This document shows positions 4,161 to 51,116 of a stretch of 64,000 nt of DNA, in pieces (positions within the stretch are counted from its first letter, which is position 1; each line of letters starts with the position of its first letter). Location: the NCBI GenBank assembly GCA_025200525.1, contig CM045761.1, positions 95,146,182 through 95,210,181 on the forward strand. Reading direction: 5' to 3'. The translations under genes and the position numbers were made by a program. The notes beneath the pieces are model-generated. The model was not told the origin of the DNA, did not search any database, and saw nothing but the letters and a program-made list of their open reading frames with translations. Source of the DNA: Camellia lanceoleosa. Lineage: Eukaryota > Streptophyta > Magnoliopsida > Ericales > Theaceae.

Positions 4161-4302
4161 TGTAGACACCCCATTTTTGACTGTCCTCGAGACTTGGACT
4201 TCATCGTTTGAACACTCGATGATTTTGTATGTGTAGACACCCCATTTTTGACCGTCCTCAAGACTTGGACGTCACTGATTGAACACTCAGTGATCACCCT
4301 TG
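4161..4302 (+). repeat. 71-bp direct duplication of the LTR 5' end
   Basis: TGTAGACACCCCATTTTTGAC occurs at 4161 and again at 4232. In both it is followed by a GTCCTC.AGACTTGGAC stretch, then GA.TGAACACTC and GTGAT/GATGAT. The first copy is cut where the second begins. Confidence 0.85.
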
Positions 4303-23580: not shown

Positions 23581-23585
23581 GATGG
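23581..23585. other. Target site duplication GATGG, left
   Basis: GATGG abuts the left end of the LTR element, and the same five bases occur at 38529-38533. The empty site would read AGGGATGGCAACGG, which resembles the end of a hAT-type MITE. Confidence 0.92.
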
Positions 23586-26500
23586 TGTAACATGCTCGGG
23601 GGGTACCCGTGCGCGTTAAATAGTTCGGACTCCCGAGATCTCTTTGATCTAGTCTCACGAGTGCAATGTGAAACGTAGATGAGAGTCCAGATTTGGCAAT
23701 TTTTATTGAAAATCCATTGTATTGCAATTTTGTCAAAAATAGACTGCGTTATCAGATCTCAGAGTCGCCACCTAATATTTTGGAAAATTAAGAAACCCAT
23801 GACTCGTGCCAAGGCCACTGTTCGTCGTAACCAAGGATGCTTGGCTTGGAACCTTAGGTATGAGAGGGAAAGGTCAATAATGAGCACCACCGCTCACCCG
23901 ATCAAAAGATCGGCCTCTACTAAACCATGATATGAATTTTATTTTCTTTATATGTTCATGTTCTGATTATTGTAGTAAATCCTAAAATTTACTGTGTGAA
24001 GCATACAAGTATAGACTAGTTTGCTCAAATTTGAACAATTCAACTTTATGTTTGCTTTTCGAAAAGGAGTTTGAATTTGCCACTTGACAAAGTGGGCTTA
24101 AAGTTTGTGAGTTTGCCACGATAAAGTGGGCTTAAAACGTACAAGCGTTGAATCATTCCAATTCAAGTAACAAGCCTTCATCCACAGACATTCATAGAGT
24201 TATATCACATAAGCACATAGCTTCTTGGTAGAATGCTAACACATAGTAAGAAAAACACACACAAATGGGATGCTAAAGCGTAAAAACTCACAGATTTACT
24301 GACGTCCCTCGAACAGCTACAAAACAAAGTTAGTAAAATATGCATGATCATATATACAAATTCCTAATGCAATTCACTCACGAGATGTAGCTAAAGATCT
24401 CGCTTCTAAGATATGACATATGAAACATTGTAGGTGATAGCGCACATAATCACGTAGGAATTGATGAAATCTACAAATGCAAACTTAGCCGAATCAAAAT
24501 GCATGAAACATGGATGCAAAGTATGGATATGCATGGCATGTCAAATATATACATATGTACAGTTAGAGAAAGCGATTAAAGAATGGGATAGAAAGAAGCG
24601 GGGTGGGGGATTATTACAACACTTTAAATATTACAGAACCGAGGGAGAGGGAAAGGAATAAATATTACAGCAAAATATAAAAATCCTCACAAACTCTCAA
24701 AATAAAAATAAAATGAAACAGTGACACCTTAATCAATCCTGGCAGAGATGGCTCGAGCAAAACCTCATAGAATCACATGAGAATCACATGATCAATCATC
24801 ATAAATAGACCATTATAAACCATATACTGCAAGTGGACCCCATCAGCCCATATCTTAACTCCCACCAATTTCTTAACAAATTGGGTCCAAAGAGATGCAA
24901 AACAAACCCACGGCCAAGCACTACTCAACCAGCCCATAAAAATGGGTCAAACTGTTGACATATGAACCAATGTTAATGGCCCATTAATATCAAGGCCCTC
25001 TGAGAGAACACGTGAGCCCCCCTCCAAATTGATGTTCAGCAGAAGTGCCACCACCCTTACTTCCATAACACCATGGCGTAGACGAGGTGGCATGGAGCCG
25101 AGTCGGGAGAAGGAGAACTGAGCTTGAGAATGTCGAGAGCCCATCGGAAGGTGTTCATGCTCTTCACGCTATCTTTTGTTTAACCACATTTGCATGCCCT
25201 TTTCTATCCACCCCGTCGGTGTAGTGTAGTCCATTTCGGCCGAAGGATCATCCCCAAGCATCATTCACCTTGTCAACTCTACAAGCCATTCCTCCATTTT
25301 GAAAAGAGAGAGATAGACAGAGGGAGATCCTTGAGAAGAGAGAGTTGCCGAGATGATGATCCTTCCAGCGGATCGGCGCCACTGTCGTATCGGGAAGAAA
25401 GTTGGTCAAGTGAGGAACATCTTCGAGTTCAAATCCATCATCAACGGTGTCGTTTGGATTTTGAGCTCTGATGGGGTGATTATGGTGCCAAAGTAACAAT
25501 TTTTTGAAATACATTGGTGAAAACAAAACAAATGGGAGTCCACCCAAGAGGGAGGGGAGATAAGAGAGAGAGATGGGCTGCTTGTGTTGATTCAAAAACT
25601 CAAGAGAGAGAGAGAGTCCATGTCGGTTTTGTAAGTGTGTTGAGTGTCTCCATGTGTGTGATCTGTATGGAAGGAGAGAGAGAGAGAGAGTCGTTGGATG
25701 CATGTCTCAATCTGTGATGTCTGTGTGTATGGTGATGTCCCGTGTACCTATGTGTGTATAGCAATCTTTGTTTTCTTTTTTTGTACTCCAACCCTCTGCC
25801 GAGAGAGAGAGCTAGAGAGAGGGAGTTGCAGAGAAAGTGGTGCCAAAAGGTTGATGCCGTGTGTGGTGTGTTATGTGTGTGCTAGGTGTAATGCTCTCAC
25901 TCTCTAAACCGTGTGTGTGAATATGCATGTCATCATGTGTGCTGGGTCCGTTTAGCTCTGTGATAGCCGTGTGTGAGAAGATGAAGTTGGTGGTGTGAAG
26001 TGTGTGTCCTCTCTCTCTAAACCCGTGTGTGTGTTCAGTGGTGAATGGATGTGTTCAGTGGTATTGTGCATGTGTGTTGGGATGGCAGTGGTGGTGTAGT
26101 GAGAGTGTGTGTTGTGCATGTGTGTGGTGTGCTGCTGCCGTGAGTGTGTGTGCATGGCTGTGTGTGGTCTATGTGTCTTGCCGTGAGTGTTTATGCATGG
26201 CTGTGTGTGGTGTGAGTGGTGTGAGTTGCAGTATGTGTGTATGTATGGTGTGTCATAGGAGAGAGAGAGAGATATGAAGTTGGGTTTTTTTTTTCTCTCG
26301 AGAGAGAGTTTGCAAGACCAAAAATTCTCTCCCAAAATCCCCCCCCCCCTTCTTCTTGGTGGTGTGTTGAGTCTCAATTATAGAGAGAGAGCCATCACCC
26401 ATGCATGTCAGTAAGATGAGAGAGACCAAATTGGAGAGAGATTGCCCCTCATCAGTGTATCCCTCAATCATTCAAGAGAGTGAATTGTTTGTTGTGTATG

Positions 26501-26964
26501 TCTCCTCTCCACCCACTCTCACATGCTCTCCTCTTTTTCTTTTCTTTTTTGATTCTTTTCCCCCATGACCTTACATGTTCCCTCCTCTTCTAAAAATAAT
26601 TGTTTTCCACCACCTCCACACAACCTTACCAAAAATCTTATCTCCATCTCCCCACTCATTCATCCTCTTTTTCTAATTTTATATATATACTTTTTTTTTA
26701 TCATTTTCTTTTTTTATCAAATATCAAAATTAATTATACCAATTTAGATAAAAACATCAAAAACTATGTACAGCACATAAAATTACAAAATATTATGAAA
26801 TACTAAAAATTAATAATTTGGCCAACATGGGTAAGGTTTGGGATTAAAGTTTTTTTTATATTTTATGCTGAGAAATTCATAAAATAGTATATTCCAACAT
26901 TCATCATGGGATGTTCAAAAAAAGGTGCCCAAGTCTTATGGCCGGTTAAAATGGGGTGTCTACA
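23586..26964 (-). mobile_element. 3' LTR of the 14.9-kb element
   Basis: On the minus strand it starts TGTAGACACCCCATTTTAAC at 26964 and ends CGAGCATGTTACA at 23586. It contains a TATATATA box near 26680, then GA/GT-rich low-complexity DNA around 25600-26300 with many TGTGTG and GAGAGA runs. Open frames in that zone are simple-sequence artefacts. Confidence 0.9.
26679..26689 (-). promoter_or_regulatory. Possible TATA box of 3' LTR
   Basis: TATATATA on the minus strand lies about 280 bp into the LTR and is followed downstream by a purine-rich leader. The same motif is at 38244-38254 in the 5' LTR, which would drive the element. Confidence 0.45.
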
Positions 26965-26976
26965 GTTGCCCCTCTT
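26965..26976 (-). other. Polypurine tract
   Basis: AAAGAGGGGCAAC on the minus strand lies directly upstream of the 3' LTR start, as expected for the primer of plus-strand synthesis. Confidence 0.75.
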
Positions 26977-27254
26977 TGACAGAGCTCAAAGTCATTTCAT
27001 GACGTGAGTGAATGTCAAAGCCCGAAGACGACCCTTTTGACGAGACCATAAGACTTGGGCAAACAAACAAGATGCAATGCAAGTGGTTGAACCCGAAGGT
27101 TGTCTACGTATCCCTTTGTAAGGAATCAAACCAACGTAGTTCAGGGGCAAAATGCAAATGATATGTTGGAAGATTGTGACAACTGGACTTATACGCTACG
27201 CGAAGCCGATTATTTTTTAAAACCTTATGATCATGCAAGAGAGGGAAGACCTCA

Positions 27255-29205
27255 ACCAAGAGAAATCAACATCCTAACACGTGTCATGCGAAAGGAGGAA
27301 AGATGGTGTAAACAACAGGCGCACCTGATATTTTTAACCGAGTGAATCAAAGACCTAACACGTCTCACGCGAAAGGAGGAAAGATGGTGTAAACAACAAG
27401 CGCACCTGATGTTTCTCACCGAGTGAATCAACAACCTAACGCGTCTCACGCGAGAGAAGAAGGGGTGGTGTAAGCAGGCAGGCGCACCTGCTGTTTTTAA
27501 TCGAGTGAATCAATAACCTACCGCGTCTCACGCAAAAGGAGGAGGGATGGTGTAAACAACAGGCGCACCTGTTGTTTTTAACCAAGTGAAATCAATATCC
27601 TAACGCGTCTCACGCAAGAGGAGAAGGGGTGGTGTAAACAACAGGCGCACCTGCTGTTTTTAACCGAGTGAAATCAACATCCTAACGCGTCTCACGCGAG
27701 AGGAGAAGGGGTGGTGTAAACAACAAGAGCACCTGCTGTTTTTAACCGAGTGAAATCAACATCCTAACGCGTCTCACGTGAGAGGAGAAGGGGTGGTGTA
27801 AACAGACAGGTGCACCTGCTATTTTTAACTGAGTGAATCAACATCCTAACGCGTCTCACACGAGAGGAGAAGGGGTGGTGTAAACAGATAAGCGCACCTG
27901 CTGTTTTTAATTGAGTGAATCAACAACCTACCGCGTCTCACGCGAAAGGAGGAAGGGTGGTGTAAACAACAGGAGCTTCTGCTGCTTTTAACCAAGTGAA
28001 ATCAACATCCTAACGCGTCTCACGCGAAAGAGGAGGGGTGGTGTAAACAACAGACGCACATGCTGTTTTCCACCGAGTGAAATCAACATCCTAACGCGTC
28101 TCACGCGAGAGGAGAAGGGGTGGTGTAAACACACAGGCGCACCTGCTGTTTTTAACCGAGTGAATCAACATCCTAACGGGTCTCATGCGAGAGGAGAAGT
28201 GGTGGTGTAAACAGACAGGCGCACCTGCTGTTTTAAACCGAGTGAATCAACAACCTACCGCGTCTCACGTGAAAGGAGGAGAGGTGGTGTAAACAACAGG
28301 CGCACCTGCTGTTTTTAACCGAGTGAAATTAGCATCCTAACGCGTCTCACGCGAGAGGAGAAGGGGTGGTGTAAACAGACAGGCGCACCTACTATTTTTA
28401 ACCGAGTGAATCAACAACCTACCGCGTCTCACGCGAAAGGAGGAGAGGTGGTGTAAACAACAGGCGCACCTGCTATTTTTAACCGAGTGAAATCAACATC
28501 CTAACGCGTCTTACGCGAGAATAGAAGGGGTGGTGTAAACAGACAGGCACACCTGCTGTTTTTAACCGAGTGAATCAACATCCTAACGCGTCTCATGCGA
28601 TAGAAGAAGGGGTGGTGTAAACAGATAGGCGCACCTGCTGTTTTTAACCGAGTGAATCAACAACCTACCGCATCTCACGCGAAAGGAGGAGGGGTGGTGT
28701 AAACAACAGGCGCACCTGCTGTTTTTAACCGAGTGAAATCAACATCAGGGGTGGTGTAAACAAACAGGCGTACCTACTGTTTTTAACCGAGTGAATCAAT
28801 AACCTAACGCGTCTCACGCGAAAAGAGGAGGAGTGGTGTAAACAACAGGTGCACCTACTGTTTTTAACCGAGTGAAATCAACATCCTAACGCGTCTCACG
28901 TGAGAGGAGAAGGGGTGGTGTAAACAGGTAGGCGCACCTGCTGTTTTTAACCAAGTGAATCAACATCCTAACGCTTCTCACGCGAGAGGAGAAGGGGTGG
29001 TGTAAACAGACAGGCGCATCTGTTGTTTTTAACCGAGTGAATCAACAACCTACCGCGTCTCACGCAAAAGGAGGAAGGGTGGTGTAAACAACAGGCGCAC
29101 CTGCTGTTTTTTAATCGATTTGGGTTTTGATATTTGGACTTATACACTACGCGAAGTTGATTTAGGTGGTGTGAACAGACAGGCGCACCTGCTGTTGTTA
29201 ACCGA
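27255..29205. repeat. 3' UTR tandem array, about 24 units of ~82 bp
   Basis: Units contain, in order, CCTAACGCGTCTCACGCGAG, AGGGGTGGTGTAAACA, CAGGCGCACCTGCTGTTTTT and AACCGAGTGAATCAAC. I counted about 24 copies of the GGTGGTGTAA core from 27302 to 29165. Most are 80-84 bp apart; one junction near 28745 is shortened. Each unit has two short palindromic elements: CGCGT-CTC-ACGCG and CAGG-CGCA-CCTG, the latter extended by AACA/TGTT. The array is flanked by copies of GGACTTATACGCTACGCGAAG at 27186, 29136 and 29221 (slightly varied). It lies between the antisense ORF and the polypurine tract, the hypervariable 3' UTR position where Tat-lineage elements are known to hold tandem repeats. No long open frame crosses it. 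Confidence 0.93.
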
Positions 29206-29371
29206 TTGGGTTTTGATAATTGGACTTATACGCTACGCGAAGTCGATTTGGGTAATTCATGATTTGTGCAATGCAATGCAATGTCATGGAGTGATGATAA
29301 AGCTATGAAGATGGCAACATGGGTGGCAAGCTTTGTGTAAAACACACGAAGCAAGCCACATTTCTACCTGG

Positions 29372-30112
29372 CTATATTTGTAACTTTCCCTATTCTCCAA
29401 CAGGGTGACAGACTAGGTTAGTTCAGTTTCCAGAGTTGAGGCGCATACAAGTTATCTCAACCTATGGGGCTGCCATATAGATTTCAAGCCGGGGATACAC
29501 CCCTGGGTATTTAAACCAGACTTTAGTCTCAGAAATCCTGAACCTTTTGCATTCTAAGCATCACCATTCGAACTCTAGTTTCCACCGTCTCAATTGATCT
29601 CCTAGGAACTCATTACAAACATAGTCAGGTGACTATACCAGACCGATTGAAGTCGTTTGGGCACGACAAACACCAAAGAAATTGCACCTCTAAAGGATTT
29701 AAGGTCTCCTAGACCATAAAAGTCGTTTGGGCATGACAAACACCAAAAGACTTGCACCTTCACAGGATTTAAGGTCTCCTAGACCCGAAAAAGAACAACA
29801 AGCACACTTGTTGTTTTTAACCGATTAAATGGCCATGAATGCCGCTTTACTTCCTGATTATATTCACAACTTTCCCTATTCTCCAATGGGGTGACAGACT
29901 AGGTTGGTTCAGTATCCAGAATTGAGGCGCATACATGATACCTCAACCTATGGGGCTGCTGTACAGATTTCAAGCCGAGGATGTACCCTTAGGTATTTAA
30001 ACCAGACTTTAGTCTCGGAAATCCCAAACCTTTTTGCATTCTAGGCCTCGGCCATTCGAACTCTAGTTTTCACCGTCGCAGTTGGTCTCCTAGGAACTCA
30101 TTGCAAACACAA
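29372..30112. repeat. ~255-bp direct duplication plus 70-bp duplication between
   Basis: Two copies (about 29372-29625 and 29859-30112) share CTTTCCCTATTCTCCAA, GGGTGACAGACTAGGTT, TTGAGGCGCATACA, ATGGGGCTGC and CTCCTAGGAACTCATT. Between them a 70-bp unit built on AAGTCGTTTGGGCA.GACAAA is present twice (29649 and 29719). No coding is seen. Confidence 0.8.
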
Positions 30113-30120
30113 CCAATATA

Positions 30121-30300
30121 ATACACAAATATTTACATATCAATACACACATATATGTACATATGGTATACACATATGCATATACAGACAACATACAGAC
30201 AGATATATATAGATATATACACAGACATATACAGGTATATACGACACAGACATATACTGACCTATACACAAACATATACAGATATATACACAGATGGAGA
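30121..30300. repeat. ATACA/TATACAGACA microsatellite-like region
   Basis: Low-complexity repeats of TATACA, ACACAGACATATAC and similar. The open frames on both strands here are products of the repeat. Confidence 0.85.
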
Positions 30301-30420
30301 ATATTCCGTTTGCAACCGTCAGCCGGAAGATGCCGTTACTGAGAAGGCATATTCCGTTTGCTGACGTTAGCACACGTACGCAAAACACGCAGAAGAAAGG
30401 AAAAACACAAAATGAATGGA

Positions 30421-30660
30421 TGTGGGGATATGGGGTTTCGAACCCCGGACCTTAGGCCTGGTCTTCGAGTCCTCGATCACTGAACCACGCCACTCTTGTA
30501 ACAAGATATGCAAACAAATATATATACATATACAAGACATATGTACACAAAATCAAAGAAAAAACAAAGAAACATTTGTTGTGGGTTCGAACCCCTGACC
30601 TCAAGCTTAGGCTCTCCGAATCCTCAACCCACTAGGCCAAACCACTGAACCCAAGCCACA
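30421..30660 (-). repeat. Pair of degenerate tRNA-like segments
   Basis: On the minus strand, 30493-30425 has an A-box-like TGGCGTGGTTCAGTGATC and a B-box-like GGGGTTCGAAACCCC. A second segment at 30658-30580 has TGGTTTGGCCTAGTGGGTTG and GGGGTTCGAACCCAC. Both place the boxes about 35-45 bases apart. Neither folds obviously into an intact tRNA (no clean acceptor stem or anticodon arm is visible). They look like decayed tRNAs or tRNA-derived SINE heads. Confidence 0.4.
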
Positions 30661-30714
30661 CCTGTGACCCAAATGTTCAAACAAATATATATATTACATA
30701 GCTATACAATACAT

Positions 30715-30736
30715 ATACATATATATATATATATAC
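30715..30736 (+). promoter_or_regulatory. TATA-like tract upstream of antisense ORF
   Basis: A run of TATATATA about 310-335 bases before the ATG at 31050 is followed by pyrimidine-rich CTCTCTCTTCC stretches (30770-30810), typical of plant 5' leaders. It could also be a simple microsatellite. Confidence 0.35.
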
Positions 30737-31049
30737 AACTTTCCCGCATCTCTTTCTGTTTTTGTCTTACTCTCTCTTCCTATTTTTGTCTCACTCTCTC
30801 TTCCTTCATCTTTTTCGAGCGTCGTTTCTATCGCGCGATTTCAACAATCGCAGCACCTGACCGACAGGCTATCCAATCCTGCCCCGATTGTCAATGATCG
30901 TCTCGAGCCTTCCTCCCTCTTTGTCTTCTTTTTTGGCTTCATCCACTTCTTAAGTTGAGGCATGCGGTAGAGAGAGGCAGAGCGATAGCCTGCAAACTTT
31001 CTCTACCACCACTCTGCAACCTCTTTCTTTTGCATTACTCTTCTCTACC

Positions 31050-31538
31050 ATGGCCTCTTCACAAGGTTCTCTCACTCTTTTTCCAGACCTAAACGAGTCT
31101 ACGATAGAGATGACCAATTCCGACTCCACTAAACCTCAACCACGAGCTCCTCCTCCTTCTCCTGTTTTTAACTTTCCAGCGATGTCAGTTGAACAAATCA
31201 TGGCGGCACAGTCTGACATCAAAGCAAACTCGTATACACTGAGGTCATGTGTGGAGACCGTGACAGCGGTCTCCAACTTGTCCCATCGACTGCAGAACAG
31301 GATGTGTGAAGTACATCAGTTACATGCACAACTTTCCCTTCTTCAACGCATGTACAAAGATGCTCGAGTAGAAATTAGTGCACTAAAAAAGCAGAACAAA
31401 GAGCTGAAACGACTGACAACCTCCGTGACTCGATTCGGAGTTTCTTCGCACAACCAATTTGATGGTCGGCGAGGAATAATCTCCTTTGGAAGCTCTGCCA
31501 AGGCCGAGGTAGAGTCTTTAAAAGCTTCGAAGGAGTAA
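31050..31538 (+). CDS. Antisense coiled-coil ORF inside the LTR element
   Basis: 162 codons on the strand opposite to the host retroelement. The start is in a strong context (ACCATGG). The N-terminus [17 protein letters not shown] contains a DLN core like the EAR repression motif. A Pro-rich linker ([10 protein letters not shown]) and a block [17 protein letters not shown] follow. Residues about 70-125 are helical and coiled-coil-like ([20 protein letters not shown] then [15 protein letters not shown]). The stop at 31536-31538 looks secondary: just after it, other frames read EARQQMEKLGNETV and ANEARCNLRCRATAEKLRKC. Two small frame changes therefore seem to have clipped a coiled-coil tail, and the ancestral protein was roughly 40-50 residues longer. 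An AATAAA lies at 31751. No catalytic domain is visible and its function is unknown; I recall similar unnamed proteins in plant genomes but cannot name a family. Confidence 0.6.
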
Positions 31539-31750
31539 AGATGAAGCGAGGCAGCAGATGGAAAAGTTAGGCAATGAAACTGTGTGCAAATGAAGCCCGT
31601 TGTAATCTTCGTTGCCGAGCTACTGCCGAAAAACTGAGAAAATGCTACTCTCTCTTTTTGCTTTTTTTGTTGTTTTTGTTTTTGCTTTTGTTTTGTTTTG
31701 TTTTTTTTCTTTTTGTGTCTCTGTGATCGGGGATGTCCTCCCCTGACTGC

Positions 31751-31756
31751 AATAAA
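31751..31756 (+). terminator. Candidate polyadenylation signal for antisense ORF
   Basis: AATAAA lies 213 bases after the stop codon, beyond a T-rich stretch (31650-31715) typical of plant 3' ends. Confidence 0.4.
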
Positions 31757-31939
31757 ATCAGTTTAGTTTTTGCACATCAATGGTGTGACTGGCATATCAC
31801 TTTGAACTTGAAAACATTTTTGTTTGATTGAATTTGAGAGTGATTGAATTTTGAACTCTGAATTGAACATTGATTCTATATTGACCTGAATCAAAGAATG
31901 ATTTAACGAAACAAGAACGAAGCAAAACGATCCGAACAC

Positions 31940-32070
31940 ACTTATATACACTGACTGGTATGAATACGCCGATTGGTATAAATATACTGACTGGTATGAA
32001 AGGAACACACTTATATACATTGACTGGTATGAATACACTGACTGGTATGAATACACACTTATATACACTG
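31940..32070. repeat. ~18-22-bp repeat (GACTGGTATGAATACAC type)
   Basis: Six to seven degenerate units of CTGACTGGTATGAATACAC occur, some as CACTTATATACACTGA. The minus-strand frame rich in YSYQSVYIS is its translation. Confidence 0.75.
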
Positions 32071-32394
32071 AATAGTTGACTCGAGCGGTGGAGGAAACAG
32101 AATCTCTAACTCGACTATGTCCCTAGTTCATTGCCTTGACCCTTTTTTTCTCTCTTGATTTTTTGTAAAAAATGTTTTGATCAACATGAGAGTCAGATTA
32201 GCATACTTATTCCATTTTCTGTTTTGAAATCATGTAAACTAAGTTGTGAGCACTAAAAATTTTCCTTTTTTAAGTCCAAAGAATGGTCTGGTTTTGCAAA
32301 AATGAAATTTTTTTTGAGAAAATCAGTCAACTTCATTCAAAATAATCAAAACCTATTTTTGCAAATGGCCACTACCCAACCAACATGGAATCAA

Positions 32395-32565
32395 CCATTG
32401 GGATGCATAGCCCCGAACCAGATAATCAATGGTGATAACCGAACCAAGCCAATCCGAACCGAATGAAGCCGACCAGAACTGGACCAAACTGAACCGTCGA
32501 ACCGAACCGAACCAAACTGAACCAAGTTGAATTGAACCAACTTAACTGAGCTGAACGAAGATACA
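32395..32565. repeat. GAACC-rich minisatellite
   Basis: A dense series of (C)CGAACC and AACTGAACC motifs, giving frames rich in SV/QF on the minus strand. No gene. Confidence 0.7.
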
Positions 32566-32689
32566 CCAATCAAACACGGATAGAACAACCAAGTCGACTA
32601 AAGATACACGAATCAAGCATGGACGAAATGAATGAGTTGAAAAATTATTAGGGCCGAACTTTGAGATGAAGCTATCTACATATCCCAAA

Positions 32690-33720
32690 GATAGGAACCA
32701 GGCCATCGTAGTTCGGGCTGAGGGTCACTCAGGTATTGACACTCTCCTTTTGTGCTCTAACTTTTGCCAAAGCCGCCTTTTCGGGTTTTCAACCTTGCGA
32801 GCTTTTCATTTTTCATTTTTATTTTTTTCATCAATTTTTTTTTTTCTGCTCTAACCTTTGCCAGGGTCGCCCTTCCGGGTTTTCCGCCCAGCGAGCCTCT
32901 CAAGGGTTTCAGTTTAGCTTGTCCATGTTGATTGGGTGTGAGATCTCTAAGCCATCAAAATCTATAATAATGACTGCTACACTTGACCAGGAGATATGAT
33001 GATGTAAGGACTAGGCTACTTGGGTCTGAATTTGCCCCTAGTGTTGCCCCTAGTGTAGTGGATAGGAACTCGACTGTCCTTCAATAATAAAATTTATTCT
33101 CTCAAATTCTAGGTTTGGCCTTTTTGGGCGGTCTTCATTATGAAACGATTCAATTTTAACTCTTTGATCACATCCAACCTTTTGCCCCTAGTTCAAGGGC
33201 TGCTTCAAATCTAAATCACATCCAACCTTCTTGCCTCTAGTTCAAGGTTTGCTTCCAATCTGAATCCCAGGCCCTACATAGTTTTGGCTAAGGTTCACTC
33301 GGGTATTGACACTCTCCTTTTACACTCTAACTTTTGCTAAAGCCGCCCTTTCGGGTTTTCAACCTTGCGAGCTTTTCATTTTTCTTTTTCTTTTTCTTTC
33401 TTTTTTTTTTTTTTTTTTTTTTGTGCTCTAACTTTTGCCTGGGTCGCCCTTCTGGATTTTCAACCCAGTGAGCCTCTCAAGGGTGGTACCTTATTGCCCC
33501 TAGTTCAAGGGCTGCCTCCATTTCAGCTATGCAAGCCTCACACTTTTGCCCCTAGTTCAAGGGCTATTTCAAATCGAAATCACATTCTCTACCCTGAGTT
33601 CAAGGTCTGTTTTCAATCTGGATCACATCATTGCCCCTAGTTTAAGGGCTGCCTCCATTTGAATCACATCATGGCCCCTAGTTCAAGGGCTATTTCCAAT
33701 TCGGCTATGCAAGACTTACA
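32690..33720. repeat. Two long direct repeats plus GCCCCTAGTTCAAGG units
   Basis: A ~200-bp block with TCACTC.GGTATTGACACTCTCC, GGGTTTTCAACCTTGCGAGC and GCGAGCCTCTCAAGGG occurs at about 32700-32905 and 33290-33485. TTGCCCCTAGTTCAAGGGCTG or variants recur about seven times between 33030 and 33700. Non-coding. Confidence 0.75.
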
Positions 33721-34568
33721 CTTTGAATGATCATTGAATACTTCAAATCAAGGTTTGAAAGCTAAGGAGCTAAGGAGGTCGGACCACGAGTCAAGAGGGA
33801 TCCTATGCTGTATAACTAATTCCAGGCATGTCTTCGTAGGACCACGCAAAAACAGTTTTTGAAATCTTTTCACATAGTGACTAATCACTCGTACTTTTAC
33901 GAAGATAAGATAGAACCAATTTGGACCATGCCAGGATCCTTCTCAGTACCCACATTAACAAAAATGATTTTATTCATCAAAGGCTTAGCACACCTCTCAT
34001 CTTCTCAGTTGATCAAAATTTGCAAATCCTGAGGAAATTCTTCCTCTTCGTTTTTATCAGAGTTTTGGAAAAAGTTTTGAAAAACTTTGGTCAATGCGAT
34101 GAATTAAGGCACAGAGAAGTAGGTAGACTCTATGGCATTTTGTTTTTTTATTTTTCTGTTTATTGAAAAGAGACTATGACTCAGCAATGACAACAGACTT
34201 TTGAAAACATACTCAAAAGAAAATGACAAAGATGACCTAGACAGGACAGAAATGTCTAGGTTAGCACTATTGAAATCAATAGACTCTAACTCATTAGGCT
34301 GACTCGAGCCTAACTCTAACTCTACAAACTTGGTGGAGTCAAACTTAGACTCAATACACAATTCAGAACTCAGAATAAAACCATTCTCAAATTGCCAGTC
34401 AACGTGTGGGCCATCCGCAATATTCAAAATAAAACCCGTCCAATCAACAGGTGGTCACTCCCCAATCACAGAGATGGTCGGATACCCTACAAGTTCTATT
34501 TATTTACAATGGTCAACTTTGTGGGATATCGGAGTTTTTTTTTGTTTTTAATTTTTTTTTGATTTTAT

Positions 34569-34605
<37 letters not shown>

Positions 34606-35170
34606 AAGTAATGGTGCTAAATTGAACATCCTAAACCACTCATTCGAATGTGAGAACCCCTATATAGATCCAATACATTACACATAAAGCATGAAAGAGA
34701 ACAAACACCCCTAAAGAGGGTAGGGTTATCCTGTCCTAGCTTGGAATGATCTAGGGTTTCACTATTCACACAAATGGTATCATACATCCTAGAAATGGGA
34801 AAGCATCATGTCCTAATTTGAAAGGTACTATAGCTCACTATATGTACAAGGTTGGCTCTACTTTAGGGGTTGAAGCCAGGGTGACATTACCAAAGAGTCC
34901 TTTGGGTCATAACCAATGAAGATCTTAGGAAATCAGAAGGGTCAATATAGCCTCTCTTCAAAATTCGAGAACCTTTAGATCTCAAAAGATTATAACACAA
35001 GACCTCCAAAGTAACGTAGAGATAGGTGTAGTGTCACAAAAAGTGTGTCTGTGCTCCCACTAGCATCTGGACAACACAGGGACTTTAAGTGCACCAATGC
35101 ATGCGATGCAATAAACATATAATTGAAAATAAAAGTCATATCATGGAGTTCGAGTCAAGGTATCATAAAA
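33721..35170. other. 5' leader side of the element, no gene seen
   Basis: This is the stretch next to the PBS, where gag would start in an autonomous element. The longest frame on the element's coding strand is 107 codons (34427-34104), Ser/Leu-rich and without a CCHC or other gag motif. A poly-T run of about 37 bases lies at 34568-34604. A degenerate or replaced gag cannot be excluded. Confidence 0.55.
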
Positions 35171-35188
35171 TCCCCAACAGAGTCGCCA
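35171..35188 (-). other. Primer-binding site
   Basis: TGGCGACTCTGTTGGGGA on the minus strand lies five bases inside the 5' LTR end. It resembles the tRNA-type PBS I recall for Ogre/Tat elements (reported as tRNA-Arg). The tRNA identity is from memory and unverified. Confidence 0.75.
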
Positions 35189-35193
35189 GAAAC

Positions 35194-38100
35194 TATAACA
35201 TGCTCGGGGGGTACCCGTGCGCGTTAAACAGTTCGGACTCCCGAGATCTCTTTGATCTAGTCTCACGAGTGTAATGTGAAACGTAGATGAGAGTCCAGAT
35301 TTGGCAATTTTTATTGAAAATCCATTTTATTGCAATTTTGTCAAAAATGGACTACGTTATTAGATCTCAGAATCCCCACCTAATATTTTGGGAAATTAGG
35401 AAACCCATGACTCGTGCCAAAGCCACTGTTCGTCGTAACCAAGGATGCTTGGCTCGGAACCTTAGGTATGAGAGGGGAAGGTCAATAATGAGCACCCTCG
35501 CTCACCCGATCAAAAGATCGGCATCAACTAAACCATGATATGAATTTTATTTTCTTTATATGTTCATGTTCTGATTATTGTAGTAAATCCTAAAATTTAC
35601 TATGTGAAGCATACAAGTATAGACTAGTTTGCTCAAATTGAAACAATTCAACTTCATGTTTGTTTTTCAAAAAGGAGTTTGAATTTGCCACTTGACAAAG
35701 TGGACTTAAAGTTTGTGAGTTTGCCACTATAAAGTGGACTTAAAACGTACAAGCGTTGAATCATTCCAATTCAAGTAACAAGCCTTCATCCACAGACATT
35801 CATAGAGTTATATCACATAATCACATAGCCTCATGGTAGAATGCTAACACATAGTAAGAAAAACACACACAAATGGGATGCTAAAGCGTAAAAACTCACA
35901 GATTTACTGACGTCCCTCGAACAGCTACAAAACAAAGTTAGTAAAATATGCATGATCATATATACAAAGTCCTAATGCAATTCACTCACGAGATGTAGCT
36001 AAAGATCTCACTTCTAAGATATGACATATGAAACATTGCAGGTGATAGCGCACATAATCACGTAGGAATTGATGAAATCTACAAATGCAAACTTAGCCAA
36101 ATCAAAATGCATGAAACATGGATGCAAAGTATGGATATGCATGGCATGTCAAATATATACATATGTACAGTTAGAGAAAGCGATTAAAGAATGGGATAGA
36201 AAGAAGCAGGGTGGGGGATTATTACAACACTTTAAATATTACAGATCCGAGAGAGAGGGAAAGGAATAAATATTATAGCAAAATATAAAAATCCTCACAA
36301 ACTCTCAAAATAAAAATAAAATGAAACAGTGACACCTTAATCAATCCTGGCAGAGATGGCTCGAGCAAAACCTCATAGAATCACATGAGAATCACGTGAT
36401 CAATCATCATAAATAGACCATTATAAACCATATACTGCAAGTGGACCCCATCAGCCCATGTCTTAACTCCCACCAATTTCTTAACAAATTGGGTCCAAAG
36501 AGATGCAAAACAAACCCACGGCCAAGCACTACTCAACCAGCCCATAAAAATGGCTCAAACTATTGACATATGAACCAATGTTAATGGCCCATTAATATCA
36601 AGGCCCTCTGAGAGAACACGTGAGCCCCCCTCCAAATTGATGTTCAGCAGAAGTGCCACCACCCTTACTTCCATAACACCATGGCGTAGACGAGGTGGCC
36701 ACCGGAGCTGGAGTCGGGAGAAGGAGAACAGAGCTTCAGAATGTCGAGAGCCCATCGGAAGGTGTTCATGCTCTCTTCGCTGCTATCTTTTTTTTTAACC
36801 ACATTTGCATGCCCCTTTTCTATCCACCCCGTCAGTGTAGTGTAGTCCAGCTCAGTCGCAAGGATCATCCCCAAGCATCATTCACCTTGTCAACTCTACA
36901 AGCCATTCCTCCATTTTGAAAAGAGAGAGATAGACAGAGGGAGATCCTTGAGAAGAGAGAGTTGCCGAGATGATGATCCTTCCAGCGGATCGGCGCCACC
37001 GACGTATCGGGAAGAAAGTTGGTCAAGTGAGGAACATCTTCGAGTTCAAATCCATCATCAACGGTGTCGTTTGAATTTTGAGCTCTGATGGGGTGATTAT
37101 GGTGCCAAAGCAACAATTTTTTGGAATAGATTGGTGAAAACAAAACAAATGGGAGTCCACCCAAGAGGAAGGGGAGATAAGAGAGAGAGATGGGCTGCTT
37201 GTGTTGATTCAAAAACTCAAGAGAGAGAGAGAGTCCATGTCGGTTTTGTAAGTGTGTTGAGTGTCTCCATGTGTGTGATCTGTGTGGAAGGAGAGAGAGA
37301 GAGAGTCATTGGATGCATGTCTCAATCTGTGATGTCCGTGTGTATGGTGGTGTCCGTGTACTGTGTGTGTATGGCGTCTTTGTTTTCTTTTTGTACTCCA
37401 ACCCTCTACTGAGAGAGAGAGCTAGAGAGAGGGAGTTGTAGAGAAAGTGGTGCCAAGAGGTTGATGCCGTGTGTGGTGTGTTATGTGTGTGCTAGGTGTA
37501 ATGCTCTCTCTCTCTAAACCGTGTGTGTGAATATGCATGTCATCATGTGTGCTGGGTCCGTTTAGCTCTGTGATAGCCGTGTGTGAGAAGATGAAGTTGG
37601 TGGTGTGAAGTGTGTGTCCTCTCTCTCTAAACCCGTGTGTGTGTGTTCAGCGGTGAATGGGTGTGTTCAATGGTATTGTGCATTTGTATTGGGATAGCAG
37701 TGGTGGTGTAGTGAGAGTGTGTGTTGTGCATGTGTGTGGTGTGCTGCTGCCGTGAGTGTGTGTGCATGGCTGTGTGTGGTGTGAGTGGTGTAAGTTGCAG
37801 TATGTGTGTATATATGGTGTGTGATAGGAGAGAGAGAGATATGAAGTTGGGTTGTTTTTTTCTCTAGAGAGAGAGAGTTTGCAAGACCAAAAATTCTCTC
37901 CCAAAATCCCCCCCCTCTTCTTGGTGGTGTGTTGAGTCTCAATTATAGAGAAAGAGCCATCACCCATGTATGTCGGTAAGATGAGAGAGACCAAATTGGA
38001 GAGAGAGTGCCCCTCATTAGTGTATCCCTCAATCATTCAAGAGAGTGAAGTGTTTGTTGTGTATGTCTCCTCTCCACCCACTCTCACCTGCTCTCCTCTT

Positions 38101-38528
38101 TTTCTTTTCTTTTTTGATTCTTTTCCCCCATGACAATACATGTTCCCTCCTCTTCTAAAAATAATTGTTTTCCACCGCCTCCACACAGCCTCACCAAAAA
38201 TCTTATCTCCATCTCCCCACTCATTCATCCTCTTTTTTTAATTTTATATATATACTTTTTTTTTATCATTTTCTTTTTTATCAAATATCAAAATTAATTA
38301 TACCAATTTAGATAAAAACATCAAAAACTATGTACAACACATAAAATTATAAAATATTATGAAATACTAAAAATTAATAATTTGGCCAACATGGGTAAGG
38401 TTTGGGATTAAAGTTTTTTTGATATTTTCTGCTGAGAAATTCATAAAATAGTATATTCCAACTTTCATCATGGGGTGCTCAAAAGAAGGTGCCCAAGTCT
38501 TAGGGCCGGTTAAAATGAGATGTCTACA
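35194..38528 (-). mobile_element. 5' LTR of the 14.9-kb element
   Basis: 3,335 bp, collinear with the 3' LTR at 23586. On the minus strand it starts TGTAGACATCTCATTTTAAC and ends GAGCATGTTATA, followed by the PBS. The start differs from the 3' LTR (CATCTC versus CACCCC). It contains a TATATATATA tract at 38244-38254 and a GA/TG-rich zone at 37150-37850. Confidence 0.9.
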
Positions 38529-38533
38529 GATGG
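38529..38533. other. Target site duplication GATGG, right
   Basis: The same five bases as 23581-23585, directly adjoining the right LTR end. Confidence 0.92.
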
Positions 38534-39141: not shown

Positions 39142-42100
39142 TTATCGCCCTTCAATACTTGATAGAGATGCCTTATTTATAGAATATATTTTATTGCATT
39201 GTGATCGAAGATCGACATCTGACAAGCTTTTAATGGTGAATGTAGGTTGTTTTGGATGTGGAAGATCTATTTCAGTGCTGAGCATGAGAACCACATCAGA
39301 CATAGTTGGCCTATCCGCAACGTGGTCCTGAACACAAAGAAGGCCAATCTGTATACATCTCATTACTTCAGACCAGGAACATGAATCAATCACTACCTTA
39401 GCTACTAAGTCTGATGCTCGGCTTTCGTTGCACAATTTCCATGCCTAGAATAGTTCCACATATGTCCGTATATGAATTAGTAGAACCACATATAATGGTG
39501 GTGACTAACAATATATGAAAGCATGTAATGGTGAAATTAGTGCACTTACATAACCAAGGAGGTTCAAATATTTTTCACGATAATGGAAACATGTATTCCT
39601 CATGCCATTGACCATCTCTAGTAACAAAACACCAAAGCTATAGACATCTGATTTCTCTGAAAATAGCCCTCCTATTGCATACTCGGGAGACATGTATCCA
39701 CTGCATTTGATTAGAAATTATTACATTTATATATGCTTACCCAAAATTATAGGACTTCCAGTCAATAAATATAATATAACTATTCTAAAAAAATTGAAGA
39801 TTAAAAAAAGGAAGGAGACAAAACTTATTTATTGAATCACTTATATTGCCTAAATGCATATTTTAATCCAGTCATTTCACTAAATGATAAACAAAAATAA
39901 AATTTATGTACCGAAATGAAAACTACTTAGCCTCATTTGTAACTCTAGTCTCCATCCTAATCAAAGATATATTTTAAGCTTATTTTTAAAGTGGTAAGCC
40001 TGTTGTGATCCATACTAGTGGCTATTTCCATTATACTTTTATTTGTTGTATTTCAAACATAAAATGTTCCATATCAATACATAACTGCATCAGTAGAGAA
40101 AATAGTTGGCAAAAGTGAGAAAAATCTATTGAAGGAAAGAAAAGATCCTTACAATGTTCCCACCACTCTGTGAGTATTTGCCAGCTCTTGTGTCACTTGG
40201 AAAATTCGCGCTAACCCAAAGTCTGAAATTTTCGGATTCATGTCATCATCTAAGAGAATATTGCTAGCCTTCAAATCTCTATGAATAACCCTTAAACAAG
40301 AATCCCGATGGAGATAAAGAAGCCCTCTAGCAATACCCTGAATAATGTGGAAGCGTTTAACCCAATCAAGCTTCACCCCTTTCGTTGCATCTAAAGCATG
40401 AAAAAGAAGAAAACAAGTTGGAAAATTTCTTTCCTGAGTGCTAGACATAGTTGTAGTAACAATATTGAATGCTATGAACAATTTACAGGAGGAAAGATGA
40501 GACTATAAACCAACCAAAGAGAAAAGTGTCCAAGCTTTTGTTTGTCATGTACTCATAAACCAATAGCTTCTCTTCCCCTTCAATGCAGCAACCCAAGAGC
40601 CTAACAAGATTCCTGTGCTGCAATTTGGATATCAATATGATCTCATTCTTGAACTCTTCCACGCCTTGTCCTGAATGCCTCGAAAGTCTTTTCACTGCCA
40701 CTAGCTGCCCATCTTCCAACTTTCCCTGTAGTCCACCATTTTTATTAGTTAGTAAATCAGATATATGTCAACTTAATTCATATATTTAAAAACATAATTA
40801 CCTTATAAATGGGTCCAAATCCTCCTTCCCCAAGTTTGTTTGTTGTGCTGAAGTTATTGGTAGCAGCTAATATTTTATCAAAGCCAATAATAGGTAGCTC
40901 TGAAGTGTCCATTGAATCAGCCATTTCAAAGTCCTTTCTTCTGTTTTCTTTGTTTACTGATGTACAAAAATTGAACCACAGTACTGAAAATTATTTAGAT
41001 TTCTCATATGTTAATAATAATCATAGTCTCTTGTTAGAATTCAATTATGTAGCTTTCTTACCTCTTTGATTTGCTCTCCACCTGTGCAAACCATACATGA
41101 AGGCACCCAAGAGGACAGCCCCAGAAATTGTTGTAAAGCTGATGACGAATTTTTCATCATTTTTCTTATCTTTTCCTGGAAATGAAAAAAAACAAAAAGA
41201 AAAGAAAAGAAAAAGATAATGAAAAACAAATTACAGAGTAAAAATGGCGTTGCTAATCCAAAGATATTAAGGCTCAAATAAATTATCTTTACCCATCTCT
41301 GAATCTGAAAGGCGAAGGTAGAAGTCGTTCCCGTCAAGAGAAACCTGCTGAACATCCATGAGCCCTCCAGTCCAAACCATACAATCAATTCCAGTCACAG
41401 ATGCATATGCCACACAAGAACAGTTACTCAAGCACCATTGTTGGCAACCTGAGGAATCCTCAGTGTACAAATATTCATAATGATCCGGCAGCTTCATACT
41501 TCTCAACTTCCAAAATCCATCATTTTGAGCCTTTCCTGATGATGCTAAGCTGCTAGTGTTCTTTTGGCATAGCAAATCAGTTTTCCTCACACAACCACCT
41601 GCCCAATTTCCTTTCTTCCAATCCTCAATTGAGTTTGGTACAAACCCTTTCAAGCACTCACAATTTGGAGACATATTCTTGTTGCAAACTCCAAAAGGTC
41701 CACAAACCCCATAAATATCACATCGATTGACTGGAACCATAAAATAAACATACGGGTTCTTGACTTTTTCATCCATATACATTAGCTTCAAAGTTCCATT
41801 TGGTGTTAAGAACGTAAAGTGGACATAAGAGATGTTGTAAACGTGCCATGTCATATACACACTTCCCTGCTGATTATCTTGTATGACGTTAAATCCATCG
41901 CCGTAGCATTAGGTCCAAAGGTCCCTATAAACTTCGATCCGTCCATGGACCACTTCTCCAAGATGGCTTGGAAACATTCCAAATGAAAACTCATGTGGTG
42001 TGTCCATTGAAAACCCGCAAACAAACTTTCCAGGATGGGTCATCTTCGTCACCAGAAGACAAGAAGCATTTCTCTCTGTTTTCTTTGTTCATTCTCGCAT

Positions 42101-47515: not shown

Positions 47516-50500
47516 TCACATACACCACTCTAAAAATAAAATTCCAACTTCACCTTGTCTAACCCAATTTATGTCCTCTTCACAAGCAAACGAAGTTGCA
47601 TCTAACTCTTGGTCACCAAATCCTTCCACTTCATTGTGATGTTCTCTATCATTAATTGGTTGTTCTCCACACACCTCATACAAGTCTCTAGGTTTCATCT
47701 TGACTACAACATCCCAATCAGCTTCAACGGGATCATTAACATAGAAAACTTGTTGTGCCTGAGATGCTAGGATGAATGGCTCATCACTATTTTGTTTCTT
47801 TGTATATAACAAATGATTGAAATTAACAAGTGTGAAACCAAACCCATCCTGCTTCAGTCCTTTGTTGTTGTCAATCCAGTCGCACATGAATAGCACATAT
47901 CTACGGTCGTATGAGTAATACAATTCAATAATATCTATCACATATCCATAGTATGCTACTTCACCTTCCACAGGATTCATGTCTCTGGTACTTGCATAGC
48001 TACAAGTCTTTGCTTTCACCATAACCCCACTATTTTGAGTTTTTCTTCTCCACTCACGACTCCTCGTATGATACCTAGTACCATTAATTATATACCCATT
48101 GAATCTCGTGGCCTTTTTACTAGGTCCCAATGCCAAAGTTTTAATCTCATCTGACAACACAGCATTTTCAACAGCTAGAAGCTCTTCAACCTATTTTTAC
48201 AAAGTCAACAAAATTAAACATCAACTAACAGAGAATTAAAAATTGAAAACATGAAAATTGAAAATTAAAAACATGTAAGTTATTAGCACTTACATGAGAA
48301 TTAAACCATCTGGGAAACTCATCATTGTGACGGCGATCCACGTCAAAATCTTTGAGACGACGATGTGACCGCTTAATAAAATCATGATGCTCCCTATACA
48401 TTTAAAGTACTTATAAAATGTAAGATACTTATTAATGGTATCAATAAAATTTTGGAACAAAGATTGTATCTTACTCTCGATATGGGACAACCGCAGCAGT
48501 GTTAAATAACACATACCGATGAGCTTGTACCCATGATGTGTTATCAAGCGCAAACCCTTTTCCTTTTCCTAAAGCATGACCCAGTAATATCCCAGGATTG
48601 TCGCTAACATCGTAATTCCTTATTGGTCGATTCAATTTTGACTCGACATCATCCAAGTACCTTGAGCAAAAGGTCATACACTCTTCAACTAAGTATCCCT
48701 CTGCAATTGAACCTTCTGGATGACTTCGATTACGCATATATGACTTAAGTGTCATAAGATACCTATAAACAAACAAATGCACACATGACTTTCAATTATA
48801 AACAAACAAATGACTACAACTGTAAATTGGAGTAGAATTGCACACCTTTCTATAAAGTACATCCAGTGATATTGCCTTTGGACCAAAGAATCATGGCCTC
48901 CTCTGCTAGGTGAATAGGCAAGTGCTCCATTATATCGAAAAAGGATGAAGAAAAAATTCTCTCAAGATGACAAAGTGTAAGAGCAATTTGGGATTGAAGA
49001 CGATCTAACCCATCTGGCTCTAGAGTTTTGGAGCACAACTGCCTGAAGAAATTGCTTAACTCAATCAATGGTTCAACAACTTTCTTCGGTAACAAATTTC
49101 TCACTGCTATTGGAAGTATTTGTTGCATCAATATATGGTTGTCATGACTTTTCAGTCAGAATATGCTATGTTGTTTGAGGTTAACACGACGAGAAATATT
49201 GGATGCATACCCATCTAGAACTTTGATATTCTTCAAGAGTGTACAAAACAAACCTCTCTCTCTATTGCTCATAGCGAAACATGCAGGCGGCAAATAATAC
49301 CTGTTCCCAACCCCTTTTTTAGGATGTAATGCCTTTCGAAATCCCATATCTTGCAAGTCTCGACGAGCATTTAAATTATCCTTTCCTTTCCCATCAACAT
49401 TTAATATCGTCCACAATATATTATCACACACGTTCTTCTCAATGTGCATTACATCAAGATTGTGGCGGATCAAATTATCCTCCCAATATGGAAGCTCAAA
49501 GAAAATACTCCTCTTCCTCCAATTATGATCCTCCTCGTTGTCCTCTTTTTCCTTTCCTTTCCTAGTTCTTTTTTATCTGTTAGTTGGTTGATGCTTAGGC
49601 CCTAGCTGTCGTAACACATTAGCCCCCGATAACCGAGTTGGACATGGTTCAAATTCAAAAGTTCCATCAAAAGACGCACCATCTTTTCAAAATTTGTGAC
49701 TCGCATTCAACCAGCGGCGATGCCCCATGTAACAAATTTTCCTTCCATTCTTCAAATACCGATGTCGAGTACGTATGTTACAACAAGGACAAGCTAAAGC
49801 ACCTTTCGTGCTCCATCGCACAAATTGGCATATGCAGGAAAATCATTTATTGTCCACAATAAGACCGCGTGCAATTGGAACATTTGATTAGTTTCTGCAT
49901 CGTACGTCTGAACACCATTTTCCCACAATTCATTTAGTTCATCCACTAACAAGCGCAAGTAGACATCAATGTTATTGCCAGGTGAAGAAGGACCATCAAT
50001 GAGCAATATCATCATCATATGAGGTTGTTTCATGCACAACCACGGTGGCAAATTATAAGGCATCACAATAACTGGCCAACTGCTGTGAGCAACATTCATT
50101 GCCTTGAATGGATTAAATCCATCCGCTGCTAAACCTTGTCTGACGTTGCGAGGCTCACTCGCAAACTTCGGATACAAAGTATCAAAAAATTTCCAGACAG
50201 GAGAGTCAGCAGGATGTCTCATTTTGCCGTCATCAATTCGGCCCTCTACATGCCATCTCATTAATGAAGCAATTTTAGATGACATGAACAATCTTTGAAG
50301 CCTTGGAATCAAAGGAAAGTATCTCACAATCTTTTGTGGAATTCTTTGTTGCTTCTTTTTATAATCATTCTTCTCACCCTCAAACTGTTTGTATCTAGGC
50401 GTCTGACACACTATACAATCATCCCTACTAGCTGTCTCCTTCCAATACAGTGAGCAATCTCTTGGGCATGCATGTACCTTGTGATAATCGAGGCCTAATT

Positions 50501-51116
50501 CCCTAAGGAGTGCCCTCGTTGCATAGAACGACTTTGGCAAAGTTTCACCTTTTGGGAATGCATCCTTCAAAAGTTTAAGCAACATCGTGAAAGACTTGTC
50601 GCTCCATCCACTAAGGCACTTGATATGCAATAATCGAACAACAAATGAGAGCGTTGAAAACTTGTGACACTCTGGATACAACTCTCTTTCGGCCTCCTTC
50701 AATAAACTGAAAAATCTTTCAGTTTTCTTATCCGGGCCTAGTTCGATATTAGAACTTCCTGTCTCATTACTAGCACGATGAACCAAGCTTGGTGGAGGAA
50801 GTCCGAACCCCTCATATATCATTTCATTGACTTCATCGCCATCATTCGAATCACTGACATTCTCATTCAATGGCACAGACGCCGGTAAATCTTCCCCGTG
50901 AAAAATCCATCTGGTGTAGCTTGGAAGAAACCCATTGACCATTAAATGTTCCCCCAAAAGGTCTTTCTTTACTAGTTTGACATTCCGACACCGTTTACAT
51001 GGACATGTGACTTCAATTGATAGAGGATTATTTTGGCATGCAAGTTTAACAAATTCCTTAACCCCTTCTATATATTCTGGATGCAACCTATGCTGATTTA
51101 TCCAACTTTTATCCAT
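47516..51116 (-). pseudogene. CACTA transposase (tnp2/TNPD type)
   Basis: The start at 51116 (MDKSWINQHRLHPEYIEGVK) gives the transposase-associated N-terminal domain with CPCKRCRN and GFLPSYTRWIFHGE. The tnp2 core follows: ACPRDCSLYWKE, CIVCQTPRYK, MRWHVEGRIDDGKMRHPADS, GLAADGFNPFKAMN and VYLRLLVDELNELWENGV. It continues through ALACPCCNIRTRHRYLKNGR, NLDVMHIEKNVCDNILW, LPPACFAMSNRERGLFC, the DUF4218-like part (48850-49131), exons 48772-48475 and 48393-48294, and a last exon 48190-47516 with the DUF4216-like DRRYVLFMCDWIDNNKG. Damage: a frameshift near 49810, stops near 49702, 49573 and 49154, and a frame change near 48885. It catalyses cut-and-paste excision when intact (family knowledge). 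The long first frame (440 codons) is undamaged. Confidence 0.92.

Follow-up and report, generated by a model that had tools for sequence, protein, structure and literature searches.

Plant LTR elements have long been known to contain accessory ORFs in antisense orientation, whose function has never been established. In Retand elements, TRP28 (PF04195) is encoded antisense in 97% of recently active clusters, Camellia clusters included, as described in PMC11963269. These ORFs resemble the gene we report here: they are antisense, lie on the 3′ LTR side with tandem arrays nearby, and are suspected regulators. Our ORF differs in being shorter (162 aa) and in having no gag-pol found with it, and the LTRs of its element measure 3.4 kb, as against the 315 to 1194 bp given there (PMC11963269). 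PF04195 is absent among the Pfam matches of our ORF at E ≤ 1, and it is not among the best 25 of the 78 Pfam families that match a 35-member alignment of the ORF family. Maize Grande gene23, with its own promoter and a nuclear product, and PvRetro13 ORF2, with an SMC match, are likewise antisense accessory genes, but they belong to families that bear gag-pol, and we set them beside our ORF by description (PMC7264820). The ORF3 proteins of bdelloid rotifers are accessory types common to retroelements of different classes, a case of modular sharing. According to PMC5408684 they are enzymes encoded beside gag and pol, whereas the Camellia ORF is antisense and without gag-pol. HTLV-1 HBZ, which an LTR element encodes in antisense and which has a zipper-like helix (PMC6950816), is an analogy of the works-like kind only, and the Camellia ORF has neither a bZIP match nor a demonstrated basic region before its helix.

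Antisense accessory ORFs, the sharing of ORFs among retroelements, and gene capture are already known, and the Camellia family is a variant of these. We found no report of this ORF family in the open-licence PMC literature that we searched. What goes beyond the original prediction is the probable exchange of the gene as a cassette and the presence of the same gene family in small elements that are likely copia type.

The host element in the window

In the window, a 64-kb stretch of Camellia lanceoleosa DNA, positions 23586-38528 are taken up by a complete LTR element of 14.9 kb, which lies on the minus strand and has 3.4-kb LTRs, a primer binding site (PBS), a polypurine tract (PPT), and the target site duplication (TSD) GATGG (Table 1). 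The reverse complement of the PBS lies beside the right LTR and that of the PPT beside the left one, an arrangement that puts the reading direction on the minus strand. Its LTRs are 94.8% identical in a BLAST comparison of the window with itself (direct repeats 23588-26968 and 35196-38532), and their K2P divergence is 0.035 over 3324 ungapped sites; at plant substitution rates, this value corresponds to a few million years. Within the 8.2-kb interior are an 82-bp tandem array and the antisense ORF. Its longest sense ORF, from stop to stop, is 139 codons, and a Pfam scan of all 18 sense ORFs of at least 60 codons gave no gag or pol match, in agreement with the original prediction of an LTR element lacking recognisable gag-pol genes. 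Large retrotransposon derivatives (LARDs) have LTRs, a PBS, a PPT, a TSD, and a long interior without gag-pol. The window element has the same architecture, with an LTR pair, PBS, PPT, TSD, and no gag-pol in the 18 sense ORFs scanned, and adds to it a selected antisense protein gene.

The element had been called Tat/Ogre-like. Traits of the Tat/Ogre/Retand lineages of Ty3/gypsy include a non-Met PBS, large LTRs, and noncoding tandem repeats (PMC6317226). With the PBS TGGCGACTCTGTTGGGGA, 3.4-kb LTRs, and the 82-bp array, the window element matches these traits, which are not exclusive to the lineage. RT phylogeny and an archaeal RNase H are what define the lineage, and no RT was found in this element; the label would fit the PBS type, the LTR length, and the tandem repeats.

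Table 1. Features of the host element and of the antisense gene, in window coordinates
Feature	Positions	Strand	Basis
TSD GATGG, left	23581-23585	.	Sequence match to right copy
3′ LTR of host element	23586-26964	-	LTR pair comparison
Polypurine tract region, reverse complement GTCAAAGAGGGGCAAC, beside 3′ LTR	26965-26980	-	
Tandem array, period ~82 bp, 16-17 copies, between antisense gene and 3′ LTR	27234-29128	.	
(TA)8 tract, possible TATA region of antisense gene; backbone side of cassette junction	30720-30735	+	Putative role
Exchangeable cassette: leader, ORF, first part of 3′ UTR	30765-31648	+	Match ends against subfamily B backbone
Antisense ORF, ATG at 31050, TAA ending at 31538, 162 codons; LFPDLN motif near N terminus, Pro-rich linker, long helix 47-130	31050-31538	+	
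3′ UTR block, predicted hairpin GGGGATGTCCTCCCC, AATAAA at 31751-31756	31716-31757	+	
Primer binding site TGGCGACTCTGTTGGGGA (reverse complement in window), beside 5′ LTR	35171-35188	-	
5′ LTR of host element	35194-38528	-	LTR pair comparison
TSD GATGG, right	38529-38533	.	Sequence match to left copy

The window holds other mobile and host-like sequence as well. Decayed integrase-like ORFs lie at 3239-4162 on the plus strand (PF17921, below the cut-off), and 3 kb past this remnant, a stretch at 7449-8098 resembles the LTR of the host element at about 69% identity, in the opposite orientation. Judged by their sequence, the two are perhaps what is left of a gag-pol-bearing relative of the host element. 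A CACTA-type transposase with Transposase_21 (E 2.5e-68) and Transpos_assoc matches occupies 49794-51116 on the minus strand, and a receptor-kinase-like fragment with S-locus glycoprotein and PAN domains occupies 41267-41860 on the same strand.

The antisense gene family and its protein

The antisense ORF sits on the 3′ LTR side of the element. Its length alone is weak evidence, because an ATG ORF of at least 162 aa appears in 5 of 300 Markov-1 simulations of the 8.2-kb interior; homology settles that it is real. A protein search returned 105 relatives at E ≤ 0.01, the best at 1e-88. Of these, 81 carry a species name, all from Camellia (C. sinensis or C. fascicularis), and 24 are unnamed. The hits include unnamed 'ena' contigs of 583 to 2356 bases, which may be transcripts. 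A profile search gave 165 relatives, and among the 120 listed, the named ones are all Camellia; a third search, intended to recover longer relatives, yielded 48 proteins, and the 42 named ones are again all Camellia. Several family clusters represent 50 to 104 member sequences each. No relatives were found in collections of viral contigs and genome contigs. The plus-strand ORF in a minus-strand element, as read from the PBS and PPT, and its homologues together confirm the predicted antisense gene of 162 codons.

We then searched the 3.0-Gb assembly of the same genome. A DNA query led to 40 scored copies among 2065 first-look candidates, and two protein queries, P0079 and P0017, led to 150 scored among 5006 and 150 among 5236, respectively. 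Subfamily A consists of the window copy and the DNA-query copies, subfamily B of the 15 loci kept with P0079, and subfamily C of the 30 kept with P0017, an abundant C. sinensis protein whose best match in this genome is 84% identical. Homologues within other elements had been expected, and they were found, both as the 105 proteins and as copies in the plant's own genome, where they reside in two element types. The 39 other A copies comprise 13 that are intact in register, 23 interrupted by in-frame stops, 2 with frameshifts, and 1 without a stop whose ATG is lost. In a tree of 43 proteins (18 genome copies, namely 6 A, 5 B, and 7 C, plus 25 database proteins), A, B, and C each come out separated from the rest by a supported branch (100/99, 100/99, and 98/94). 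Protein identity between the subfamilies is about 50 to 60%, with dS near 1.

Some of the database proteins may be composite. By eye, P0010, P0017, P0033, P0037, P0051, P0061, and P0065 pair C-terminal variants with differing N-terminal variants, and from these sequences they look as if copies had recombined by template switching. P0139, a 498-aa C. sinensis model with 4 members, joins a plant-mobile-domain-like part (E 2e-5, below the cut-off) to the family; it may be a true long form or a gene-model chimera, and we did not use it as evidence. P0101, P0112, P0133 to P0138, and P0140 are annotated Camellia models with pieces of the ORF family beside other sequence, through exonisation or annotation error.

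The sequence signals that were originally described around the ORF are present in the window copy: an ACCATGG start, an upstream TATA tract (the (TA)8 of Table 1) with a CT-rich leader, DLN in the N terminus followed by a Pro-rich linker, and a downstream AATAAA. ACCATGG occurs in only 6 of 38 readable A copies, and the ATG itself is kept in 37 of 39. AATAAA is kept in 39/39 A copies and is itself among the 3 of 445 noncoding hexamers that are fully conserved, with a possible slight bias in favour of conservation from its place at the end of the search query (31756). A 33-mer of the hairpin block, at no more than 4 mismatches, was found in 37/39 A, 14/15 B, and 0/30 C copies; A and B have this block in common despite their far-diverged coding cassettes.

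AlphaFold2, run with an alignment of 35 family members, predicts one helix at residues 47-130 with disordered ends (mean pLDDT 72.6, pTM 0.41; block-mean pLDDT 97 to 99 for residues 51-120). None of 2000 shuffles reached the observed power of the hydrophobic period of 3.5, and the heptad-like coiled-coil helix of the original prediction is borne out by both analyses. Across 35 chosen family members, 22 positions are invariant, including P, L, and N of LFPDLN. No Pfam family passes the cut-off for the window ORF, which has 5 weak matches at E ≤ 1, and a sequence search of the PDB gave one match, at E 0.92. The best Pfam match, TMF_TATA_bd (E 3e-4, below the cut-off; matched by 35/35 members), we take as coiled-coil resemblance. 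A bZIP identity was rejected, with no bZIP family among the matches at E ≤ 1. The consensus of the EAR repressor motif is DLNxxP or LxLxL. The strict DLNxxP form is found in 0/15 A, 0/12 B, and 0/17 C open copies (0/44), and LxLxL in 0 A, 1 B, and 1 C open copies, and we rejected an EAR repressor.

The protein had also been thought once longer. The window ORF stops at the same place in the alignment as its four nearest full-length relatives, P0001 to P0004, and 38 of 39 A copies have TAA or TAG at this site; the window copy has therefore not been recently truncated, and its stop is a trait of subfamily A. At the level of the family, the idea holds, since the sister subfamilies have a basic C-terminal tail: it is present in 12/12 open B and 16/17 open C copies and in 0/15 open A copies.

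To measure selection, we fitted, from several starts, a codon model in which internal and terminal branches each had their own omega. The frameshifted L033 and L050 were dropped from this analysis, and L088, which is mostly N, was left out. Internal and terminal omega were 0.25 and 0.67 in subfamily A (38 rows), 0.18 and 0.69 in B (15 rows), and 0.20 and 0.42 in C (30 rows). An internal omega of 1 was rejected in all three (p 1e-7, 1e-4, and 3e-19, respectively), and internal and terminal values differ (p 4e-4, 6e-3, and 5e-4). A terminal omega of 1 was rejected in A (p 2e-5) and C (p 1e-15) and was not rejected in B (p 0.05). Because terminal omega is below 1 in A and C, the branches do not divide cleanly into selected and neutral. 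The pattern is roughly that of genes selected while their elements are active and decaying after insertion, with terminal branches in A and C that are not neutral. The B and C loci were gathered by protein queries, which biases them toward low dN; only A is free of this bias.

Controls were run on the A copies with the same tree. The correct frame gave an overall omega of 0.57, and the four non-mirror wrong frames gave 1.17 to 1.22. Downstream noncoding sequence, a small control of 218 nt (66-67 codons), gave 0.89 to 1.11 overall; its internal values were spread between 0.56 and 1.83. The mirror frame, which has its third positions in common with the gene, gave 0.62 overall and 0.26 internally, and it is open in 0/37 A, 0/15 B, and 0/30 C copies. 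Kappa in A is near 10, a strong transition bias such as would be expected of methylated DNA. Pairwise dN/dS in A, B, and C was 0.38, 0.31, and 0.22 at kappa 1 and 0.51, 0.42, and 0.31 at kappa 5, values that are supportive only. With internal omega at 0.18 to 0.25 in three subfamilies, not near 1, the suggestion that the antisense product is under selection is supported. This is a real, selected antisense gene family, and we hold that conclusion with high confidence.

Two kinds of carrier

Window-type backbone of at least 300 nt outside the ORF was found at 14/15 B loci and 7/7 A loci with 1.5-kb flanks, and at 0/30 C loci. Compared with the window backbone, B is 77.2 to 81.4% identical upstream (a collinear piece in 13/15 loci) and 73.9 to 82.5% identical downstream (14/15 loci). 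Compared with the window ORF, it is 62.7 to 64.7% identical, with dS 0.92 to 1.16 (15/15 loci), a contrast that may be widened by BLAST pieces, which favour the better-matching backbone. The upstream match stops at 30753-30764 in 13/13 B loci, and the downstream match restarts at 31649-31687 in 14/14. Since synonymous sites have diverged about four-fold beyond the backbone, more than the BLAST bias should give, the gene has a history other than that of the backbone. The contrast between A and B would be most simply explained if the transcribed unit had been replaced within a slot that stayed in place, and modular exchange of the gene as a cassette is, in our judgment, very probable. The left junction falls about 20 to 30 bases past the (TA)8 tract, close to where transcription of the antisense gene would be expected to start.

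Subfamily C travels differently. Four C copies (L058, L061, L067, and L070) were examined with 8 to 9 kb downstream, and all four lie in elements of 3.4 to 3.6 kb with LTRs of 207 to 247 bp (96.4 to 98.7% identical) and perfect 5-bp TSDs. The reverse complement of a tRNA-Met-like PBS, TGGTATCAGAGC, precedes the right LTR; the match is exact in L070 and differs at 1 position in L067 and L058 and at 2 in L061. The reverse complement of the PPT TTTGAGGGGG follows the left LTR in 4/4. By this placement, the C elements too are read on the minus strand, with the ORF antisense and adjoining the 3′ LTR in 4/4. Their PPT and LTR ends we take to be copia-like. Primers of the tRNA-Met type are those of Ty1/copia lineages and most chromoviruses, not of non-chromovirus gypsy elements, as laid out in PMC6317226. 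On the basis of this PBS, the C elements, in which no RT was recognised, are likely copia type.

None of the 8 sense ORFs of at least 120 codons between the gene and the 5′ LTR of the C elements has a gag or pol match in Pfam. Three of the four have host fragments in this interval, a bromodomain in L061 and L070 and a kinase in L067; in L058, no host gene fragment was recognised there. L061 and L070 are 91% identical through their captured cargo, which indicates that the two multiplied as elements lacking gag-pol. Upstream of the ORF, LTR-like sequence was found at 26/30 C loci (the four probes included), 0/8 A loci, and 0/15 B loci; these matches align over at least 188 nt in 16 loci and over 64 to 96 nt in 10, with a probe that includes 60 nt of interior. 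A C LTR used as a query gave 41 matches, among them 8 LTR pairs 3.1 to 3.6 kb apart and two more pairs 11 and 15 kb apart. An ORF from the P0017 search is enclosed by 4 of the 8 pairs, the query's own included, in the same orientation in 4/4. Maize Bs1 and the TRIMs, small plant LTR elements known for capturing genes (PMC13317346), resemble the C elements in their short LTRs, in the lack of any gag-pol found, and in host fragments (present in 3/4 C elements); the C elements differ in also having an antisense gene, related to that of a gypsy-type element.

Further observations concern single loci. L061, L067, and L070 group with L090 to L092 among small LTR elements or ORF neighbourhoods that contain host pieces. 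L085 has a Complex1_51K (Complex I 51K) Pfam match downstream of its ORF, and an LTR pair was not seen there. By eye, the neighbourhood of L077 is presumably GATL-like and that of L087 hydrolase-like. L071 looked like an autonomous copia carrier of the ORF (RVT_2, E 3e-34), and we ruled this out: the copia element is nested, with its own PPT and LTR start. Beside it lies a second, decayed copy of the ORF with LTR-like pieces (L093:3510-4394).

Possible roles of the antisense protein

The explanation we prefer, and consider probable, is that non-autonomous LTR retrotransposons carry this family as an antisense accessory gene, selected for its protein and exchanged as a cassette. It uses two vehicles: A and B occupy one backbone slot, and C sits in an equivalent antisense position in elements with other LTRs and another PBS. 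How the gene might work can be outlined. A promoter at the (TA)8 tract would drive a short antisense mRNA ending near the AATAAA; the protein would dimerise through its long coiled coil and display the conserved LFPDLN motif on a disordered N terminus. It would then enter the nucleus, where the basic tail of B and C may serve it, and act as an adaptor on chromatin or transcription, such that gag-pol provided in trans would copy its carriers more often. This mechanism, a coiled-coil nuclear regulator, we offer tentatively, as possible rather than probable. Subfamily A has no basic tail and, if the tail is a nuclear signal, would have to enter otherwise, which counts against a single simple model. 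An extended form of the preferred explanation treats the antisense gene as a semi-independent selfish module, a cassette in a standing antisense slot of gypsy-type and copia-type vehicles, that raises the copying or survival of its carrier whichever gag-pol does the copying; we regard this as speculative and somewhat unlikely.

Selection might act instead in gag-pol-bearing relatives outside our sample, in which case the copies we see are passengers that lost gag-pol and simply inherited a recently selected gene. In the account of PMC11963269, Retand elements that were recently active typically carry antisense ORFs, and most of these elements, Camellia ones included, have gag-pol. Terminal omega exceeds internal omega, as passengers would have it, and A copies other than the window were covered for only 1.5 kb on each side. 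The elements covered end to end, namely the window element and the four C elements L058, L061, L067, and L070, speak to the contrary, since all five are without recognisable gag-pol. Other A and B copies were covered for up to 1.5 kb on each side, except the B copies L009 and L012, which were covered for 8 kb downstream; on this coverage, the originally suggested recent loss from an active relative may or may not have happened. At L009 the backbone continues for about 2.9 kb downstream of the gene, and the two longest sense ORFs beyond it, within these 8 kb, have no gag or pol match. The 91% identity of L061 and L070 through their cargo also goes against passengers, as these amplified without gag-pol. 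Overall, we find the passenger explanation doubtful.

A different activity is conceivable for the same selected protein: an anti-silencing factor like VANC, which keeps the element transcribed, in place of a repressor or adaptor. VANC of Arabidopsis VANDAL elements is described as a sequence-specific anti-silencing protein (PMC10398659, PMC5735166), and a gag-pol-less element would gain in cis from continued transcription. Our protein, however, is a single predicted helix in which no DNA-binding domain was recognised, and the likeness is functional and by description, so that we rate this activity, too, as rather improbable.

Capture of a host gene as retroelement cargo, with the selection signal belonging to the host gene, is very unlikely. 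The C elements do contain host fragments (bromodomain and kinase), but the branches on which selection was measured join repeat copies, the two element types have the ORF in one and the same antisense position, and general protein searches gave no named match outside Camellia (in one search, among the 120 of 165 listed). A chance open frame, or an antisense RNA with an irrelevant protein, is scarcely credible: an ORF this long did arise in 5 of 300 simulated interiors, and roles for antisense RNA are discussed in PMC7264820, but omega is frame specific, and the subfamilies keep about 50 to 60% protein identity at dS near 1, with start and stop retained. An RNA role may exist in addition to the protein.

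Earlier surveys could have overlooked this family by their criteria: PMC6317226 left extra ORFs of fewer than 250 codons uncounted, and PMC11963269, as it describes its sampling, took in only elements with an intact RT domain. The presence of the gene in two kinds of element argues that the protein acts on something common to them, such as host chromatin, RNA export, or silencing, and not on one gag-pol. A selected family whose carriers have no further recognised retroelement gene poses in isolation the question of what antisense accessory genes do: here, the protein should aid a non-autonomous element.
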